Below are positions 1-6,321 of a stretch of 6,321 bases of DNA, piece after piece. The first letter of the stretch is position 1. Every line of letters begins with the position of its first letter. Where the stretch lies: positions 1-6,321 of the forward strand of contig JAJZPK010000150.1 in assembly GCA_021811205.1 (NCBI GenBank). Direction: 5' to 3'. The notes beneath the pieces are model-generated. The model saw only the letters and a list, made by a program, of their open reading frames with translations. It had not been told where the DNA came from and made no database searches. The position numbers and the translations under genes are program-made. The stretch is from Pseudomonadota bacterium (lineage in GTDB: Bacteria > Pseudomonadota > Gammaproteobacteria > Burkholderiales > JABEVD01).

Positions 1-1
1 T

Positions 2-331
2 GCGCACCAGACGCTGCAGAAGCTCGGCCTCATGGATGCGCTATCAGCCAGGATGGTTGATGGGGAGGACGTGAGGCAGGTCCTTGAATACGTGGCAAGG
101 GGGGAAGTCGATGCGGGCATCGTGTTCGTCACCGATGCCGAAATCCTGCCGGGCGCGGTCGAAATCGTGGCAAAGGCGCCGAAAGGCTCGCACAGCCCCA
201 TCGTCTATCCTGCTGCCATCATGAAGGACTCGACGCATCGCGAAATCGCAAAGGCCTTCGTTGCCTTCCTGTCCGGGCCGGACGGCAAGCGCTTGTTCGG
301 CAAGTACGGATTCTCGGTCATCGGGAAATAA
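2..331 (+). CDS. modA: Molybdate ABC transporter substrate-binding protein ModA, C-terminal part (5' end cut by window)
   Basis: The reading frame is open from base 2 and ends at TAA 329-331, giving the last 109 residues. ModA is the periplasmic protein that captures molybdate or tungstate and delivers it to the ModB channel. The visible part matches the end of the second lobe: 'HQTLQKLGL', then 'RMVDGEDVRQVLEYVARGEVDAG', a V-F-V-T-D-A strand, 'YPAAIMKDS', and the terminal 'FLSGPDGKRLFGKYGF', all typical of ModA. The internal ATG at 32 is not the start, because homology runs upstream of it. The signal peptide, the first lobe and the operon promoter lie outside the window. The following molbindin, modB and modC on the same strand support the call. 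Identity is secure; substrate preference between molybdate and tungstate cannot be told. Confidence 0.95.
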   Translation, partial: AHQTLQKLGLMDALSARMVDGEDVRQVLEYVARGEVDAGIVFVTDAEILPGAVEIVAKAPKGSHSPIVYPAAIMKDSTHREIAKAFVAFLSGPDGKRLFGKYGFSVIGK

Positions 332-356
332 TTTCATCAGCACAAAGGAAGAAATC

Positions 357-560
357 ATGAAAATCAGCGGTCAAAACAAGCTTGCGGGAGAAATCATCGC
401 AATCAAGATGGGCGAAGTGTCCTGCCAGGTGACGCTGCAGTCGGGAGACAGCAGGATCGTTTCAGTCATCACGGTGGACAGCGCGAAAGACATGGATCTC
501 AAGGTGGGGGACAAGGTGGTTGCGCTCATCAAGTCGAGCGAAGTCATGATCATGAAGTGA
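357..560 (+). CDS. Stand-alone molbindin (single MOP/TOBE domain protein)
   Basis: This 67-residue protein is one MOP (TOBE-type) domain. Family members assemble into oligomeric rings that bind molybdate or tungstate in the cytoplasm for storage or homeostasis. Visible marks are N-terminal 'ISGQNKLAGEI' (family form SARN-x-x-x-G), central 'VSVITVDSAKDMDL', and the C-terminal 'VVALIKSSEVMIMK' strand. It resembles the first MOP repeat of ModE further down. The usual Arg of SARN is Gln here (residue 6), while the Lys of the second anion-contact region is kept (residue 59). I chose ATG 357 because AAGGAA at 345-350 sits 6 nt upstream; the longer frame starting at 261 runs inside modA. It lies 25 nt after modA and 4 nt before modB. 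The name mop or modG would fit, but I leave the symbol open. Confidence 0.9.
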   Translation: MKISGQNKLAGEIIAIKMGEVSCQVTLQSGDSRIVSVITVDSAKDMDLKVGDKVVALIKSSEVMIMK

Positions 561-564
561 TCTC

Positions 565-1224
565 ATGGAAAAGATCCTGCCGGCGTTGAAAATATCGCTG
601 CTCGTCTCTTTCTCGGCGACCGGCCTGATCCTGGCGGTCGGGCTCGCGCTGGCCTATCTGCTGGCGCGCTTTGAATTCAGGGGAAAGCATCTGCTCGATG
701 CGCTGGTCACCATACCGATGGTGCTGCCTCCGACGGTTGTGGGCTATTATCTCGTCATCCTGCTGGGCAGGGGGGGGCTGATCGGCGCGCCGCTTTATGC
801 AGCAACTGGCTGGTCCTTCATTTTTACCTGGCAAGGGGCGGCGATTGCAGCCTTCGTCGTATCCCTCCCCCTGATGGTGAGAGTATCGCGCTCGGCCTTC
901 GAGTCGGTCGACGAGGATCTGATCAAGATCAGCTACAGCCTGGGAAAATCCAAACTGGAGACCTTCTTCAGGGTGATTCTGCCGCTCTCGAGAGGTGGCA
1001 TCATGGCCGGCACTATCCTGGCTTTCGCGAGGGCGTTGGGCGAATTCGGCGCGACCCTCATGGTTGCAGGCAACATTCCGGGAAAAACGAGCACGCTTTC
1101 CCTTTCGATCTATTCCGCATTCCAGACCGGGGATGACGAGCTGGCGAAGACGCTTGCCCTGGTGCTGACTGCAATTTCTGCGACGGTCATTTATCTGGCG
1201 GGAAAATGGGCAAGAAGCATGTGA
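565..1224 (+). CDS. modB: Molybdate ABC transporter permease ModB
   Basis: ModB is the inner-membrane channel subunit; two copies pair with a ModC dimer and receive molybdate from ModA. The protein has 219 residues, a normal length. It shows several hydrophobic segments (about residues 9-35, 47-68, 88-105, 145-168 and 196-213). The cytoplasmic EAA coupling loop that contacts the ATPase covers about residues 116-146. The strongly conserved 'ARALGEFGATLMVAGNIPG' follows at about 155-173. The start ATG 565 lies 4 nt after the molbindin stop with no strong Shine-Dalgarno sequence, which suggests translational coupling. The gene overlaps modC by 19 nt. A run of eight G (770-777) lies in the coding region; the frame is intact across it. 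Confidence 0.96.
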   Translation: MEKILPALKISLLVSFSATGLILAVGLALAYLLARFEFRGKHLLDALVTIPMVLPPTVVGYYLVILLGRGGLIGAPLYAATGWSFIFTWQGAAIAAFVVSLPLMVRVSRSAFESVDEDLIKISYSLGKSKLETFFRVILPLSRGGIMAGTILAFARALGEFGATLMVAGNIPGKTSTLSLSIYSAFQTGDDELAKTLALVLTAISATVIYLAGKWARSM

Positions 1225-1949
1225 GCGTTCGCTTCAGGAAGATTCTGGAAGGCTTTTCCCTGGACATTGCCTGGGAGGCTGAGAGCGAAATCGTGGTGCT
1301 GTTCGGCCCTTCCGGGGCAGGCAAATCGATGACCTTCCAGGCGATGGCCGGCCTTTCACCCTTGCAGGAAGGCATTGTGCGCGTGGGAGAGACTGTGTTT
1401 TTCGATTCGGAAAAGGGAATCGACATGCCTCCCCAGGAAAGGTGCGTCGGCTATCTTTTCCAGCATTACGCGCTTTTTCCGCACATGAGCGCGAAGCAGA
1501 ACATCCTTTACGGCCATGACGATCCCAAACATGCGGATGACGAACTGGCCGATATGATCGAGCTGTTTCATCTGCAAGGGCTCGAAGAGCGCTATCCGAA
1601 AGAGCTTTCCGGCGGGCAGAAGCAGCGCGTTGCGCTCGCTCGCGCGCTCATGAGAAAGCCTAAGATACTGCTGCTCGACGAACCGCTTTCTGCGATCGAT
1701 CTTTCGGTGAGGCGCGCGATCAGGAGCGAACTGAAATCTCTGCAGAGAAGGCTTTCCATCCCGATGGTCATCATCACCCACGATCTCGGGGAGGCGATGT
1801 CGATGGCCGACAGGCTGATCATCTACGATCGCGGAAGCGTGATACAGTCCGGAAGACCGCTCGATATCGTCGAGCATCCTGTTGACGAAAGGGTCGCCGA
1901 GCTGGTGGGGAGCATACGGCTGCATCCCGAGCGAATTTTTTCTTTCTGA
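1206..1949 (+). CDS. modC: Molybdate ABC transporter ATPase ModC, short form lacking the C-terminal MOP domain
   Basis: ModC powers molybdate import by ATP hydrolysis on the cytoplasmic face. In the 247-residue protein I see the Walker A motif GPSGAGKS (34-41), Q-loop Gln86 in 'LFQHYALFPHM', the ABC signature 'LSGGQKQR' (134-141), Walker B 'ILLLDEP' (154-160), the D-loop, and switch His192 in 'IITHDLGEA'. The protein ends shortly after the ATPase core at 'RIFSF'. E. coli ModC has about 350 residues, with a C-terminal molybdate-binding regulatory domain that is absent here. ATG 1206 overlaps modB by 19 nt; an in-frame GTG at 1221 is a possible alternative start. The modE ribosome-binding site overlaps the modC stop codon. 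Without the regulatory domain, feedback inhibition of transport by molybdate is presumably lost or supplied elsewhere (inference). Confidence 0.95.
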   Translation: MGKKHVSVRFRKILEGFSLDIAWEAESEIVVLFGPSGAGKSMTFQAMAGLSPLQEGIVRVGETVFFDSEKGIDMPPQERCVGYLFQHYALFPHMSAKQNILYGHDDPKHADDELADMIELFHLQGLEERYPKELSGGQKQRVALARALMRKPKILLLDEPLSAIDLSVRRAIRSELKSLQRRLSIPMVIITHDLGEAMSMADRLIIYDRGSVIQSGRPLDIVEHPVDERVAELVGSIRLHPERIFSF

Positions 1950-1956
1950 GGTCGAT

Positions 1957-2754
1957 ATGGACAAACCGTCAAAACTGAAGGGCCGCATCCTGCTGGAAAA
2001 GGACGGCATGTCCTTTCTCGGTGGAAAACGCATCGAGCTCCTTGAAGCCGTCGAAGTCTACGGTTCGATCACTTCCGCAGCCAAAGCGGTCGGCATGAGC
2101 TACAAGGGGGCATGGGACACGATCGACGCGATGAACAACCAGTCCGACCAGCCTCTGGTGTTGCGCGCAGCCGGCGGAAAGCATGGCGGCGGCACGCAAC
2201 TCACCGATCACGGCAGAAAGATAGTGCGCCTGTTCAGGCAGGGGGAAGGGGAATATCAGCGCATACTGGAAGCCTTGATGGAAGGGATAGAGGATTTCGA
2301 TGCGATGCAGGGTTTTCTCAAAAAGGATTCTCTGCGCACCAGCGCGAGGAACCAGTTCCTTGGCAGGATAACGAAGCTTGTCAAGGGTTCCGTGAACGTC
2401 GAAGTCAAGATCAGGCTGGACGATGTGAACGAAATCGTGTCCGTGGTGACGACCGAAAGCGCCGAAACTCTGGATCTTGCGGTTGGCCTAGAAATCCGCG
2501 CATTGATCAAGGCACCATCCGTTCTTCTGACGACGGACATGTCGGGAAAATACAGCGCAGAAAACAGGATGTGCGGCACAGTCGCGAGGATCCATGAAGG
2601 AGAAGTGAACGCGGAAGTCGTTCTTGCTCTGGACAATGAAAAGACGGTGACTTCGGTCGTCACGCACGAGACCGTCAAGAAGCTTGAGCTGTCCGAAGGG
2701 GTTTCAGCTTGTGCGCTTTTCACCGCATCCAGTGTGATTCTTGCACTGGTTTGA
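1957..2754 (+). CDS. modE: Molybdate-responsive transcriptional regulator ModE
   Basis: ModE senses intracellular molybdate and, when loaded, binds DNA to repress molybdate uptake and adjust molybdenum-dependent genes. The 265 residues match the length of full ModE (262 in E. coli). The N-terminal winged helix-turn-helix spans about 18-90, with 'GSITSAAKAVGMSYKGAWD' at 36-54 and the glycine-rich wing 'AAGGKHGGGTQLTDHGR'. Two MOP/TOBE repeats follow (about 128-193 and 199-265). The first carries the anion-binding signature SARN (129-132) and Lys185 in 'ALIKAPSV'. In the second the matching positions read SAEN and FTAS, so it is degenerate, as it is in E. coli ModE. ATG 1957 was chosen because GAGG (1948-1951), overlapping the modC stop, sits 5 nt upstream. 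The gene is last in the transporter operon, so it is probably co-transcribed and autoregulated. No terminator is visible after it. Confidence 0.95.
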   Translation: MDKPSKLKGRILLEKDGMSFLGGKRIELLEAVEVYGSITSAAKAVGMSYKGAWDTIDAMNNQSDQPLVLRAAGGKHGGGTQLTDHGRKIVRLFRQGEGEYQRILEALMEGIEDFDAMQGFLKKDSLRTSARNQFLGRITKLVKGSVNVEVKIRLDDVNEIVSVVTTESAETLDLAVGLEIRALIKAPSVLLTTDMSGKYSAENRMCGTVARIHEGEVNAEVVLALDNEKTVTSVVTHETVKKLELSEGVSACALFTASSVILALV

Positions 2755-2770
2755 TGTCGAATTCTCGACA
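2755..2770. promoter_or_regulatory. Putative NifA upstream activator sequence (TGT-N10-ACA)
   Basis: TGTCGAATTCTCGACA is a perfect inverted repeat (6-bp arms, 4-nt centre) and fits the NifA binding consensus TGT-N10-ACA. It begins at the base right after the modE stop codon. Its centre is about 63 bp upstream of the start site expected from the sigma-54 promoter at 2799-2815. Sequence fit is seen; binding by NifA is inferred. Without a run of T it is not a convincing terminator. Confidence 0.8.
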
Positions 2771-2780
2771 ATAGATCATG

Positions 2781-2793
2781 TAACTCATTGATT
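2781..2793 (-). promoter_or_regulatory. Putative IHF binding site
   Basis: On the minus strand this reads AATCAATGAGTTA, an exact match to the IHF consensus WATCAANNNNTTR. It lies between the NifA-type site and the -24 element, where IHF bends DNA in classical nif promoters to bring the activator to sigma-54 polymerase. The surrounding bases are AT-rich. The match is seen; function is inferred from position. Confidence 0.7.
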
Positions 2794-2798
2794 TTCAT

Positions 2799-2815
2799 TT
2801 GGCACGTTGCTTGCT
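2799..2815 (+). promoter_or_regulatory. Sigma-54 (RpoN) -24/-12 promoter
   Basis: TTGGCACGTTGCTTGCT matches the sigma-54 consensus TGGCACG-N4-TTGCW without a mismatch. The invariant GG (2801-2802) and GC (2813-2814) are separated by exactly 10 nt. Transcription would start near 2826, leaving a leader of about 25 nt before the gene at 2851. With the upstream NifA-type site and the IHF site this is a complete nif-type promoter. Confidence 0.88.
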
Positions 2816-2850
2816 TGTGAATGGAATAGACAATTATTCCGGAGCGATGG

Positions 2851-3201
2851 ATGCTGGATGCGGCGATGCTTTCCATCATCGACGAAGCGGGCGTCAACGT
2901 GTTGACCCTGACGGAAGGCCTCGATGAGATCGAATTCTTTGCCACCAGGCTGACGCGACAGGAGGTGGGGCGCCAGGTCGCGACGATGGCAGGGATACTA
3001 CAGAGACTTTCCGCCGGGTTGCGCACGGACTTTGCTGAACTGGACTGGGAAGGTTGGGAAGGCGTTTGGCGGCTTCTGGAAGCCCCGGGAGAATCGGGCA
3101 AGCATGCGCTCTGGTTCGCAGTGCGCTCTCTTGTGCCTGCCACGCTGATGTGGCTCAGGGTCTACCGCCAGAGCCATCCCAAGCTTTTCGCATTTGAGTG
3201 A
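2851..3201 (+). CDS. Unknown 116-residue protein, first gene behind a NifA/sigma-54 promoter
   Basis: I do not recognise a named family. The protein is small, acidic and probably mostly helical, with no signal peptide and no clear membrane segment, so it should be cytoplasmic. It has five tryptophans (66, 69, 73, 88, 101), clustered in 'DWEGWEGVW' and around 'HALWFAVRSLVPATLMWLRVY'. The latter is the most hydrophobic part and looks like a packed helix. There is no cysteine, so it is not an obvious iron-sulphur or haem protein. ATG 2851 has GGAG at 2841-2844, 6 nt upstream. It is the first gene behind a sigma-54 promoter with a NifA-type site, so expression during nitrogen fixation is inferred. 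Position after the molybdate operon makes a role near molybdenum or FeMo-cofactor supply possible but unproven. That it is a real gene is likely from the promoter, ribosome-binding site and coding-like composition. Confidence 0.8.
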   Translation: MLDAAMLSIIDEAGVNVLTLTEGLDEIEFFATRLTRQEVGRQVATMAGILQRLSAGLRTDFAELDWEGWEGVWRLLEAPGESGKHALWFAVRSLVPATLMWLRVYRQSHPKLFAFE

Positions 3202-3225
3202 TTTTCACGCATGAGGGATGAGATG

Positions 3226-3510
3226 ATGCAAGTCTGTACGATCGAGATCGAGGGAGAACACGTGCCTCTCGCTTCAAAAGAGGATATCGCTTCCGGAGTC
3301 GCTGCGGCATCGAAAGTGTTTGCTGCGCACGATGCCGATCCGGAAGGATGCGCTGCCGCATATGCGAAGATGGAACGGGACGAGCTGCTCACCCGCGAGG
3401 AAGCGCTGTTTTGCATGATCTGGGAAGAAGCCGACGAAGCGGCATTTCGCGCGGTCACGCTGGGGTGGCTGGTCAGGGGGGGCATCGATATCCGTCTCGT
3501 CGTGAAATGA
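3226..3510 (+). CDS. Unknown 94-residue acidic protein, second gene of the sigma-54 unit
   Basis: No family is recognised. The N-terminus 'MQVCTIEIEGEHVPLAS' looks like a short beta hairpin, followed by an alanine- and glutamate-rich helical region (about 18-72) and a final 'AVTLGWLVRGGIDIRLVVK' that ends in a beta-like strand. It has three cysteines (4, 42, 63), not arranged as a metal-binding motif, and no signal peptide. Three in-frame ATG codons occur (3211, 3223, 3226). I chose 3226 because GAGGG at 3213-3217 lies 8 nt before it; 3223 is nearly as good. It starts 24 nt after the previous stop, so the two genes are probably co-transcribed from the promoter at 2799-2815. A run of seven G (3476-3482) lies near the end; the frame is kept. 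Confidence 0.72.
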   Translation: MQVCTIEIEGEHVPLASKEDIASGVAAASKVFAAHDADPEGCAAAYAKMERDELLTREEALFCMIWEEADEAAFRAVTLGWLVRGGIDIRLVVK

Positions 3511-3683
3511 CGGTGGTGCAGCTGATCGAAGTTCTGATGAAGCTGCTCTTCCTGAATCAGTCCGGAACCCTATCGATCGAGATCGCGCTCATAGACCTGC
3601 TGGATGAGTTTTATCGAAATGCGTCTTTTGCGTCCCCATGCGTATTCGGCGCTTGCCTTGAGCTTAAGCCATTGTTCTTCTAG
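3507..3683 (+). CDS. Possible 58-residue ATGA-coupled small ORF (doubtful)
   Basis: The ATG overlaps the stop of the previous gene as ATGA, a common sign of translational coupling. The first 37 or so codons have coding-like third positions and give a leucine- and isoleucine-rich stretch starting 'MTVVQLIEVLMKLLFLNQSG'. Against it, there is no Shine-Dalgarno sequence, no recognised family, and the last 114 nt overlap tail-to-tail with the minus-strand gene at 3570-3917, whose composition is more convincing there. Its real 3' end could be altered by a frameshift. Confidence 0.28.
   Translation: MTVVQLIEVLMKLLFLNQSGTLSIEIALIDLLDEFYRNASFASPCVFGACLELKPLFF
3511..3569. other. Gap between converging transcription units
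   Basis: This 59-nt stretch separates the plus-strand unknown genes from the minus-strand porin unit, unless the small ORF at 3507 is real. It contains GCAGCT (3518-3523) and AGCTGC (3541-3546), a weak 6-bp dyad with a 17-nt loop and no T run on either strand. No convincing bidirectional terminator is visible. Confidence 0.4.
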
Positions 3684-3917
3684 CGTTTTCCATCCGAAAA
3701 TCACTTCGCGGTAAGACAATGCCTCGAATATGCATTCGTCTTCGTCGAAGCGCTCTTCGGTCAGCACGAATTCGTGAAAGTAGAAACACCTTATTCCCGC
3801 GCGGTCGTAGCCGAGAATTTTGCGCGCTCCGAGCGATTCATCTTCGTGAATCTCGAATTGCACCGGGATATGTACCCGGTGCAGAAATCCCTCGGGAAGA
3901 CAGGTTCCCCAGAACAT
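3570..3917 (-). CDS. Unknown 115-residue cytoplasmic protein downstream of the porin
   Basis: I cannot name a family. The protein has no signal peptide or membrane segment. The first two thirds are acidic and aromatic ('FEIHEDESLGARKILGYDRAG', then 'CFYFHEF', then 'ERFDEDECIFEALSYRE'). The end turns basic and helical ('WGRKRRISIKLIQQVYERD'). A tryptophan-glutamate segment 'GWKTLEEQWLKLKA' links the two. Repeated His, Glu, Asp and Cys residues could bind metal, but no canonical motif is present. ATG 3917 begins 2 nt after the porin stop codon with no strong ribosome-binding site, so translation is probably coupled to the porin. Both genes would be driven by the sigma-54 promoter at 5226-5242. 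It may assist or respond to the substrate of the porin, which is inference from position only. Confidence 0.72.
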   Translation of the reverse strand: MFWGTCLPEGFLHRVHIPVQFEIHEDESLGARKILGYDRAGIRCFYFHEFVLTEERFDEDECIFEALSYREVIFGWKTLEEQWLKLKASAEYAWGRKRRISIKLIQQVYERDLDR

Positions 3918-3919
3918 GG

Positions 3920-5164
3920 TCAGAATGCGTACTGCAGCATGACGCGCTCGTCCACATAGGTATTGCCCCAGGCAGGCATGCCGTGCTCGATGCCAAGGCG
4001 GTTGCGCAACGTCAGACCTTTGAGCTTGCCGTTCAGATGGTAGGCGATGTCCAGCATGAAGGCATTGACGTTGGAAACGAAGGGCGCGGTATTGTAGCGG
4101 GAAAGCGTGGGAAAAATATCCAGCCGATCGCCGAGCGGCTTCAGCTTCATGCCCAGCAGCCAGGCGTGCCCGGCCGCTCTTGCCGAGACCAGGCCGTAGT
4201 TCATCACGGTGGTATAGAGCGGGTCTGTATTGTAGACCTGGGTATAGGGAGAGAGCAGATTCCCGTTGGATATCCCGGCTACCTTGTTGTAAGGAACCTT
4301 GTCATAGGCGAAATAAACTTCTCCGGAGGGCACCGTGGTCCCGATTTTTGCGCCATAAACTGTGGAATCAACCGAACCGAGAAACTGCGCTCCGCTTCCT
4401 GTTTCCTTCATGTACTGGAGATGGGCGAAAGGCGCATAGCTTTGTTTCGGGAGCTTGTAGCCGCCTTCGATATAGGTCATTTTTGCGAAATCGTAAAAAT
4501 CGTAAAGCCATGCCTCCCCGCTGATGCCGCCTTTCTTGTAAGTGGCGCCGATTTCACTGGTGCCGTTGTTGCTGCCGTTGTATCTCGGATTGTCATAAGG
4601 AAGCTCGAACAGGTTCGATGCCTGAAAACTCGATACCGTGCGGTTCTTGAAACGCAGGATTCTGTCTGCATGCAGCTCCAATCCTTTTGCAGGAGATACG
4701 GCAAAGGTGACGCCCTGATAGAGGTTGGGCATCATGAACCCGTCGCTCGGGTTGACCCAGGGATTGTCTATGACCTGATTCCCGGCCCTGGCCAGCAGCC
4801 AGGGCTTCTTGTACTGGAGATAGGCTTCGCCGATCACGTCAAGTCCCCGGCTCGTGCCCATCAGGAGCGGGTTGAGGTACTTGTTGTTCTGACTGTAGTT
4901 GTTGAAGCCGATGTCGTGTGCGAAATAGACAGCGGCTCCTGCACTGAACCCGTTCAGGCTTCCGGTCACGGCTTTCATTTTTCCGCCCACGGAAGCCGAA
5001 TGCAGGTTTGTCAGAGTGTTTCCTGCGTAATTTCTGCTGAAGTCGTAGACGCGAAGATCGCCCGAAACCTTCCCTCCCTGCAGCAGCGCATCGACGGCTG
5101 AGGCATGAGCGGCAGAGGGGGCAATCAGCATGGCTAGAACCAGTTTCTTGTAGCGTGTCATCAT
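3920..5164 (-). CDS. OprD-family outer-membrane porin
   Basis: A 414-residue protein with a signal peptide (basic 'TRYKK', hydrophobic core, likely cut after AHA at residue 21). The mature part begins 'SAVDALLQGGKVSGDLRVYDFSRNY', typical of OprD-type porins. These are 18-stranded beta barrels for small organic acids, basic amino acids or other solutes. Alternating strands rich in Tyr and Gly, no cysteine, and a final Phe ('VMLQYAF'), the signal for barrel assembly, all support an outer-membrane protein. Two ATG codons start the frame (5164, 5161); AAAGGA lies 4 nt before the first and 7 nt before the second, so 5161 may be the true start. A sigma-54 promoter and NifA-type site lie upstream, which is unusual for a porin and points to use during nitrogen fixation. 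The substrate cannot be read from sequence. The identification as OprD-like is by overall pattern. Confidence 0.87.
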   Translation of the reverse strand: MMTRYKKLVLAMLIAPSAAHASAVDALLQGGKVSGDLRVYDFSRNYAGNTLTNLHSASVGGKMKAVTGSLNGFSAGAAVYFAHDIGFNNYSQNNKYLNPLLMGTSRGLDVIGEAYLQYKKPWLLARAGNQVIDNPWVNPSDGFMMPNLYQGVTFAVSPAKGLELHADRILRFKNRTVSSFQASNLFELPYDNPRYNGSNNGTSEIGATYKKGGISGEAWLYDFYDFAKMTYIEGGYKLPKQSYAPFAHLQYMKETGSGAQFLGSVDSTVYGAKIGTTVPSGEVYFAYDKVPYNKVAGISNGNLLSPYTQVYNTDPLYTTVMNYGLVSARAAGHAWLLGMKLKPLGDRLDIFPTLSRYNTAPFVSNVNAFMLDIAYHLNGKLKGLTLRNRLGIEHGMPAWGNTYVDERVMLQYAF

Positions 5165-5225
5165 GTTTTCCTTTCGTTATAAACTATACTATATACCGGT
5201 AGTTAAAATAACCTAATAACGGTCA

Positions 5226-5242
5226 AGCAAATTCAGTGCCAA
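5226..5242 (-). promoter_or_regulatory. Sigma-54 (RpoN) -24/-12 promoter of the porin unit
   Basis: Read on the minus strand this is TTGGCACTGAATTTGCT, matching TGGCAC-N5-TTGCW, with GG and GC separated by exactly 10 nt. Transcription would start near 5215, about 50 nt before the porin ATG. The leader 5165-5225 is AT-rich and holds an 8-bp TACCGGTA palindrome (5194-5201) but no clear sigma-70 promoter. Confidence 0.85.
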
Positions 5243-5246
5243 TTTG

Positions 5247-5259
5247 CAATATATTGAAT
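5247..5259 (-). promoter_or_regulatory. IHF-like site, one mismatch
   Basis: The plus strand reads CAATATATTGAAT. Compared with the reverse of the IHF consensus (YAANNNNTTGATW) it has one mismatch. It lies between the NifA-type site and the -24 element, but only 4 nt from the latter, in AT-rich DNA where chance matches are common. Function is uncertain. Confidence 0.35.
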
Positions 5260-5291
5260 TTTAATGGTTTGTATTTTTTGTGAACAGGCGA

Positions 5292-5307
5292 TGTAACAAA
5301 TGCTACA
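5292..5307. promoter_or_regulatory. Putative NifA upstream activator sequence (TGT-N10-ACA) of the porin unit
   Basis: TGTAACAAATGCTACA fits the NifA consensus TGT-N10-ACA. Its centre is about 85 bp upstream of the start site expected from the sigma-54 promoter at 5226-5242, within the usual range for NifA sites. It lies 5 nt after the stop codon of the cytochrome gene. Around it, GCGATGTA and TACATAACGC give a wider, imperfect dyad that slightly resembles a ModE site, a less likely alternative. Confidence 0.75.
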
Positions 5308-5312
5308 TAACG

Positions 5313-5786
5313 CTATCTGTTCGAAATCCTGAAATTCGCATGACATGCGGTGCACTCTTCTGTCACAAGGGAAAGCGCGCCGATCGCCTTGCTGTAATCG
5401 CCCGCATTGCTCCTTGCAACGGCGGCGAAATTGTCCGCGGCGGTGTGCATTTTGTACCCTATCTTGTGCATGGACTTGGGCATGAATTTCGAAAGAGTGC
5501 TGTTGTCGGGCGGGTGCATCATGCCCGTTTTTTTCATGCGGCATGCAGCGGAAGAGGGGGCCTTCAGGCCGAGCCTGCTGCTCGCAATGTCGGCAGCGTC
5601 CTCGAAGTGCCTAGAGCCGAGCGCAGCCTGGATTTCATGTATGGCCAGCAGATGGTCGCGCATGTTCGCGAAGAACTGGGCGCGTATGGCCGGCGGGAGG
5701 TCGATTGATTCCGGCGCATCGGCGGCTTCCGCGCCGATCGAAAAGAGGCATGCAAACATCAAACAGAGATTCGATTTCAATTTCAT
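5313..5786 (-). CDS. Secreted class II cytochrome c (cytochrome c'/c556-like)
   Basis: The 157-residue protein has a signal peptide (MKLK start, hydrophobic core, cut near AEA at 19-21), so it should be exported to the periplasm. A single haem-attachment motif CTACH sits at 145-149, close to the C-terminus. This placement, with a helical body of about 130 residues, is the hallmark of four-helix-bundle class II cytochromes c. Met42 in 'FANMRDHLLAIHEIQ', on the first helix, is a candidate sixth haem ligand, as in low-spin c556 types; this is inferred. The middle is unusually rich in Met, Lys and His ('RMKKTGMMHPPD', then 'KFMPKSMHKIGYKMH'). ATG 5786 has AGGA 6 nt upstream, overlapping the stop of the chemotaxis gene, and the intergenic gap is only 7 nt. 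The partner redox protein is unknown. Confidence 0.87.
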   Translation of the reverse strand: MKLKSNLCLMFACLFSIGAEAADAPESIDLPPAIRAQFFANMRDHLLAIHEIQAALGSRHFEDAADIASSRLGLKAPSSAACRMKKTGMMHPPDNSTLSKFMPKSMHKIGYKMHTAADNFAAVARSNAGDYSKAIGALSLVTEECTACHANFRISNR

Positions 5787-5793
5787 GCAGATC

Positions 5794-6321
5794 CTAGTGT
5801 CTCAAGCTATCCAGTCGTTCGGCGATTTCGCCGGCATTTTTCGCCTGCTGCTCGGCAGATGACGCGATTTCTGTCACGAGCGATTGGACCGTTCCGATGT
5901 CGCGCACGATGCTGTCGAGCGATGATTCCACTTCGTGGGACAGCGCTTCCCCTTTTTCGGCCTCGATTCGACCGTTTTCCATGATCTCGACGGCAAGGCG
6001 CGTGCTCCCCTGGGTGGATTCGATCATTTTACCGATTTCCGCCGTGGCCAATGTGGTTCTTTCGGCGAGCTTTCTCACTTCGTCCGCCACCACGGCAAAT
6101 CCCCGGCCCTGTTCGCCCGCCCTGGCAGCTTCGATTGCGGCGTTGAGCGCAAGCAGATTGGTTTGTTCTGCAATTTCCTTGATTACGCCGACTATTTTTC
6201 CGATCTCCTTCGATTGCTCTCCCAGTTTCTGAATTGATTCGGAGGCGGATCTAACGATGTCGGACACTTCCCTCATGCCGGCCAGGGCATGCCTGACGAC
6301 TTCCTTGCTGCAAGGAAGTCG
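5794..6321 (-). CDS. Methyl-accepting chemotaxis protein, C-terminal signalling domain (N-terminal part cut by window)
   Basis: The minus-strand frame is open to the window edge; the ATG at 6276 is internal. The fragment is the cytoplasmic coiled-coil hairpin that binds CheA and CheW and controls flagellar motion. The hairpin tip is textbook: '[20 protein letters not shown]', then [20 protein letters not shown]. Flanking heptad-like helices carry Glu/Gln pairs suited to methylation ('[19 protein letters not shown]'). The protein ends 'DSLRH' without the NWETF-type tail that recruits methylation enzymes. The sensor region is outside the window, so the stimulus is unknown. The cytochrome gene follows after 7 nt, so the two are probably co-transcribed. 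The first few residues seen (RLPC) come from an inverted repeat at the window end and may not be genuine. Confidence 0.93.
6297..6321. repeat. Perfect 12-bp inverted repeat at the window edge
   Basis: The arms CGACTTCCTTGC (6297-6308) and GCAAGGAAGTCG (6310-6321) are perfect reverse complements around a single T, and the second arm ends exactly at the last base. It lies inside the MCP coding region. The first arm encodes 'KEVV', normal for an MCP helix, while the second arm encodes 'RLPC', which breaks the helix. A fold-back assembly artefact at a contig end is a likely explanation; a real hairpin cannot be excluded. Confidence 0.7.

Follow-up and report, generated by a model that had tools for sequence, protein, structure and literature searches.

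The published description of the NifA regulon of Azoarcus sp. BH72 gives eight genes that have an RpoN (sigma-54) site as well as a NifA site; one of these, azo3791, is listed as a conserved hypothetical ATPase (PMC3916325). A survey of the HEPN superfamily, as far as its available part goes, gives R-x4-6-H as the RNase motif, notes that some HEPN families have lost it and describes AAA+ and HEPN genes occurring together in defence systems; the word "nitrogen" does not occur in that part (PMC3710099). Here we analyse a 6,321-nucleotide contig of a Pseudomonadota bacterium of the order Burkholderiales (JAJZPK010000150.1, positions 1 to 6,321; hereafter the window), in which a candidate NifA/sigma-54 promoter lies between molybdate uptake genes and two open reading frames, ORF1 and ORF2, and a second such promoter precedes a porin gene and ORF3. 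The ORF1 promoter is of an already known kind: as in Azoarcus sp. BH72, genes without assigned function stand behind combined RpoN and NifA sites, and azo3791 can be likened to the AAA family discussed below by its description only. Nitrogenase maturation and molybdenum supply are being rebuilt in new hosts, for which a full parts list is wanted. Judged from sequence, both gene pairs, ORF1-ORF2 and porin-ORF3, most likely belong to the NifA regulon and lie next to molybdate uptake genes, and we put the probability of the whole explanation (a compact NifA/sigma-54 promoter, an ORF1-ORF2 module and a sister promoter for porin and ORF3) at roughly 0.7. The ORF1 promoter consists of three elements:

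2755..2770, plus strand: NifA-type activator site TGTCGAATTCTCGACA, TGT-N10-ACA in the TGTCG-N6-CGACA form
2793-2781, minus strand: exact match AATCAATGAGTTA to the integration host factor (IHF) consensus WATCAA-N4-TTR
2800..2815, plus strand: sigma-54 -24/-12 element TGGCACGTTGCTTGCT, TGGCAC-N5-TTGCW with 0 mismatches; transcription start expected near 2826

An initial annotation had placed these motifs here, and all three are exact matches at those positions. It had also set the activator site against the end of modE, and indeed the modE stop codon occupies 2752-2754 and the site begins at the very next base. The -24/-12 element meets the GG-N10-GC requirement, a start near 2826 is consistent with the GC at 2813-2814, and the IHF match lies very close to -24. 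By chance, a window should contain the exact -24/-12 pattern 0.01 times; this one contains it twice. Taken by itself, TGT-N10-ACA is weak evidence (two occurrences against 0.58 expected, a count reached by 26 of 200 shuffles), while the exact IHF pattern occurs once against 0.14 expected and, with one mismatch allowed, is not above chance. An activator site and an exact -24/-12 element 10-100 bp apart arose in 0 of 3000 first-order Markov windows and occur together twice in the real window, one pair per strand; this combination of motifs is not chance. The initial annotation had given one such promoter, to which the second, at 5307-5226 on the minus strand, is added here.

A profile search with ORF1 returned 54 loci (numbered L below; the genomes of relatives are numbered G). 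The closest relative is L001, from the metagenome-assembled genome SKS3.bin101, which has nifA and rpoN and carries the promoter between modE and ORF1, as in the window. ORF1 is immediately preceded by an activator site and a -24/-12 element in 7 of 55 sequences, namely the window, L001, L002, L003, L004, L005 and L014 (L002 and L003, both counted, share one promoter sequence). TGTCG...CGACA is retained in L001, L002, L003, L005 and L014 and TGT-N10-ACA in L004, and the -24/-12 element is identical to that of the window in L001, L002 and L003. Only four of the seven promoters, those of the window, L001, L002 and L003, have the exact IHF match; it was not found before ORF1 in L004, L005 and L014. 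The activator site abuts the modE stop in the window and L001 and lies further on in L002 and L003. In 10 of 55 sequences, against 0 in a reversed control, a -24/-12 element scoring at least 10/11 is found no more than 120 bp from ORF1. Across all ORF1 loci we found 50 pairs of activator site and -24/-12 element, some sharing one -24/-12 (reversed control, 0), and several of these precede nifE, nifN or nifH. A genome-wide search with the promoter pattern in 10 chosen genomes gave nine matches in six genomes and none in the control: five before ORF1, two before nifE and two, at G001:C39 and G016:C14, without an assigned gene. This pattern covered gaps of 18-48 bp only, which put nifH promoters outside its reach.

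The nifE promoter of the nifENX operon shares this layout. In G001, G002 and L003 its TGT-N10-ACA site lies 50 bp ahead of a -24/-12 element that is exact or matches at 10/11, and in G001 and G002 an exact IHF match can be seen by eye between the two. It differs in driving nifENX and the genes behind it, in its activator site in L003, which reads TGTAGGATTTGCAACA, and in its spacing of 50 bp, compared with 45 bp in five of the seven ORF1 promoters (55 and 68 bp in the other two). Most of 20 nifH promoters have 85-96 bp; the order of the elements is classical, as the initial annotation had it, and their spacing is not. The motifs and their conservation are established from sequence. NifA/sigma-54 control is supported by the activator site and -24/-12 element before ORF1, by the near-identical nifE layout and by nifA and rpoN in the nearest genomes; both genes are present in G001, G002, G003, G005 and G014. 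On this basis, 2755-2826 would be a NifA-activated, sigma-54-dependent promoter of the type of the nifE promoter that heads the nifENX-nifQ-mod string in the closest relative. NifA would bind at 2755-2770 and contact sigma-54 polymerase at 2800-2815, with DNA bending by IHF at 2781-2793 as an aid in this lineage, and would turn ORF1-ORF2 on when the cell is nitrogen-fixing.

The families themselves are tied to nitrogen fixation. Among 50 genomes with ORF1, nifH scored over its cut-off in 45, with a further piece at a contig end in G021; no nifH was found in G007, G013, G019 and G025 of this set, and nifA was over its cut-off in 44, including G007, G013 and G019. We then counted co-occurrence in 399 genomes drawn from the order to which G001 belongs, as raw numbers that include kinship among genomes, of which 56 had nifH over its cut-off. 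ORF1 matched with E below 1e-20 in 21 genomes, 20 of them with nifH, and with E below 1e-40 in 16, 15 of them with nifH; the nine genomes with weak matches (E ~1e-9), one of which has nifH, probably hold ordinary HepT proteins. For an AAA ATPase encoded next to ORF1 in relatives, 18 of 19 genomes with E below 1e-200 had nifH and none of four with weak matches did, and for ORF3 the count was 24 of 25 at E below 1e-6 (the exception being G343). These counts support a link of ORF1, AAA and ORF3 to nif: two small families and one AAA+ ATPase co-occur with nifH as nif genes do. For ORF1 this supports the nif-regulon membership that the initial annotation had proposed for both proteins; ORF2 was searched in the ORF1 genomes only, where it accompanies ORF1 in 20 of 50 (AAA in 29 of 50). 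Since the ORF1 and ORF3 families occur almost only in nitrogen fixers among the genomes checked, they may be overlooked parts of the nitrogen-fixation or molybdenum-supply machinery.

In the 54 loci, whose flanks are of uneven length, ORF1 has as neighbours a nif gene (15), modE (13), AAA (12), ORF2 (15), SelO (11), an amine-oxidase-like protein (11) or a 2Fe-2S ferredoxin (17), and seven loci have none of nif, modE, AAA, 2Fe-2S, SelO and amine oxidase. ORF1, nifH and the AAA gene lie within ~11 kb in four Methyloversatilis genomes (G034, G040, G042 and G043), the AAA gene has groups of nif genes on both sides in L103 and L104, and in G029 it is 4 kb from nifH. The window itself is laid out as follows:

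2..331, plus strand: 3' part of modA, aligning to L001 modA
357..560, plus strand: Mop-type molybdate-binding protein
565..1224, plus strand: modB
1206..1949, plus strand: modC-like ATPase, score below the equivalog cut-off
1957..2754, plus strand: modE, LysR-type helix-turn-helix plus TOBE/Mop domains; the Mop domain scores above its cut-off, the ModE models below theirs
2851..3201, plus strand: ORF1, 116 aa, of a nif-linked family; HEPN fold (HepT-like) probable, RNase motif lacking
3191..3198, plus strand: junction at which L001 has ~1.7 kb more, with the AAA ATPase gene between ORF1 and ORF2
3211..3510, plus strand: ORF2, 99 aa, no recognised fold; in relatives 3' of ORF1 or of the AAA gene
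3507..3531, plus strand: 5' remnant of ORF4 of L001, a small downstream ORF
3570..3917, minus strand: ORF3, 115 aa, nif/mod-linked family, 2 bp after the porin gene
3920..5164, minus strand: OprD-family outer-membrane porin (PF03573)

None of ORF1, ORF2 and ORF3 of the window reaches a Pfam cut-off, and ORF2 has no supported match in Pfam, NCBIfam or PDB sequences. Window 1-3191 corresponds to L001 5153-8341 at 89% DNA identity and 3198-3531 to L001 10050-10383 at 88%. L001 reads nifE-nifN-nifX-TIGR02935-(Rop-like)-fdxN-nifQ-modA-mop-modB-modC-modE-ORF1-AAA-ORF2-ORF4-SelO fragment, followed by a porin and a TonB receptor on the opposite strand. Its AAA gene (8369-10066) encodes an AAA+ ATPase that resembles Cdc48/Msp1 and whose N-terminal part is unnamed; the gene is absent between ORF1 and ORF2 of the window. 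Because both L001 and the more distant L014 carry this gene, it was likely lost in the window's lineage, though an assembly collapse may instead be behind its absence.

Loss of this gene raises the possibility, which we regard as unlikely, that the whole operon is decaying in this strain, with AAA, ORF4 and SelO gone and ORF1-ORF2 left functionless. The missing 1.7 kb, the C-terminus of ORF1, shortened relative to L001, and the cut ORF4 fit such a course, and SelO looks truncated already in L001 (a 323-codon frame). Against it, the window promoter is intact, and G002, G003 and G005 likewise have ORF1-ORF2 without AAA between them and with intact promoters. The ratio of nonsynonymous to synonymous substitution rates (dN/dS) is 0.11 for ORF1 against L001 and 0.16 for ORF2, like modC and modE, a measure that cannot date a loss. 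The window keeps the ORF1-ORF2 pair and lacks an adjacent ATPase gene.

The palindrome could also be the site of another sigma-54 activator or of a repressor, placing ORF1-ORF2 in a different regulon. The TGTCG-N6-CGACA site is more symmetric than nifH sites (e.g. TGTGGGTTTTGCAACA) and than the nifE site of L003, and in L006-L009 the palindrome is separated from the ORF1 start by 47-66 bp that contain no -24/-12 element. Yet at nifE, G001 and G002 have the same TGTCG-N6-CGACA form at nearly the same spacing, and ORF1 co-occurs with nif, which leaves this reading improbable beside NifA control. Other ORF1 loci are arranged differently: in Thiobacillus-type loci the palindrome is kept and no -24/-12 element was found at ORF1, and in Methylophilaceae and Zoogloea loci, where no such element scoring at least 10/11 occurs 120 bp or less from ORF1, the gene is part of a longer string (2Fe-2S ferredoxin, TPR protein, ORF1 and in part modE).

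Two further features were seen upstream of ORF1 in relatives. L006-L010, L013, L016, L017 and L019 have palindromes or hairpins resembling TTTGTCGC-N4-GCGACAAA, 3' of an FmdB-type zinc-ribbon gene and without a -24/-12 element. By eye, a ~36-codon frame that ends at the ORF1 start seems conserved in L010, L013, L016, L017 and L019.

The initial annotation had left both proteins unassigned, which still applies to ORF2. ORF1 is probably a HEPN-fold (HepT-like) protein, as supported by a structure model for which HEPN entries lead a second comparison; the best HEPN Foldseek E-value is 0.36, and Z does not reach the level below which the tool advises caution with helical bundles. HEPN proteins are AMPylated by MNT enzymes in other systems. 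The nearest described relative is HepT of the MntA-HepT toxin-antitoxin systems (HEPN superfamily, PF01934), with which ORF1 shares the modelled fold. ORF1 differs in being tied to nif and in lacking the R-x4-6-H-x-Y motif, which was found in 0 of 120 homologues; 20 of the 120 have plain R-x4-6-H, with differing sequence around it, and no alignment column has histidine in more than 5 of 51. No MNT nucleotidyltransferase partner was found beside it, its neighbours being modE and ORF2. Because the RNase motif is missing, we infer that ORF1 is most likely a binding or adaptor subunit, not a toxin. That ORF1 is instead an active toxin of the HepT type, or belongs to a defence system, and is present in nif islands by chance, is very improbable on the same ground, for all its HEPN-like model and the meeting of AAA+ and HEPN genes in defence systems (available part of PMC3710099). 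As a nitrogen-fixation-dedicated HEPN-type protein, ORF1 would bind nitrogenase or a molybdenum-handling partner, which the AAA ATPase, where present, would remodel. Its frequent encoding with the AAA+ ATPase and ORF2 in relatives suggests a module that remodels or assembles such a protein. A bolder proposal, to which we give little weight, joins ORF1 as an inactive HEPN protein, the AAA+ ATPase, ORF2, SelO and an amine-oxidase-like flavin adenine dinucleotide (FAD) protein into a so far undescribed module under NifA control. The HEPN protein would have been recruited to it as an adaptor for remodelling, driven by ATP, of nitrogenase or of its molybdenum supply, and SelO might AMPylate this adaptor. 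In the literature searched we found no description of ORF1, ORF2 or ORF3.

SelO, a protein adenylyltransferase, is encoded near ORF1 in L005 (8516-10063), L006, L008-L010, L016, L019, L026, L029 and L047, and the count of 11 in 54 includes the seemingly truncated L001 copy. The amine-oxidase-like FAD protein stands beside ORF1 or the AAA gene in L010 (11289-12884), L004, L011, L016, L017, L019, L028, L029, L050, L051 and L054, and likewise in L105-L107 and L111.

The second promoter, upstream of the porin gene, adds a further site to the same arrangement:

5307-5292, minus strand: second NifA-type activator site TGTAGCATTTGTTACA, with counterparts in L001 and G002
5259-5247, minus strand: IHF-like site with one mismatch, at chance level alone
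5241-5226, minus strand: second exact -24/-12 element TGGCACTGAATTTGCT
5173..5200, minus strand: ModE-operator-like palindrome ACCGGTATATA-GTATAG-TTTATAACGAA, between start site and porin gene, with the same arms in L001

The ModE operator consensus is ATCGCTATATA-N6-TATATAACGAT. The palindrome scores 18/22 to this consensus, and a reversed control gave five matches of at least 18 in ~0.84 Mb. The porin matches Pfam OprD at 43.8 bits (cut-off 25) over residues 126-290 only. The L001 porin promoter keeps TGT-N10-ACA, the exact -24/-12 element and the ModE-like arms. G002 has a porin of 71% identity and ORF3 behind an activator site and an exact -24/-12 element, with modA and modB next in line, and a ModE-like half-site can be made out by eye; the ORF3 family often adjoins mod or nif genes. 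The locus resembles ModE-controlled molybdate transport operons in its modA-mop-modB-modC-modE order, in the window and L001, and in the ModE-like operators of L001 before the porin and TonB-receptor genes and just before modA. It departs from them in that an outer-membrane porin has NifA-type and ModE-like sites together. The sister promoter with its added ModE-like operator would drive porin and ORF3, which probably serve molybdate entry through the outer membrane; the porin would admit molybdate, and ModE would shut it off when molybdenum is ample. Such a promoter suggests that diazotrophs regulate outer-membrane molybdate entry too.

Three other genes near the porin deserve mention. The TonB-dependent receptor gene of L001 (13023-15254, minus strand) has an exact -24/-12 element at 15314, preceded by two TGT-N10-ACA sites, and at 15275 a site resembling the ModE operator; a role in molybdenum-chelate uptake is possible. 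Upstream of the porin in the window, 5313-5786 (minus strand) encodes a cytochrome c'-like protein with a score below the Pfam cut-off, and 5794-6321 (minus strand) a chemoreceptor signalling domain; in G002 a chemoreceptor likewise lies upstream of the porin.
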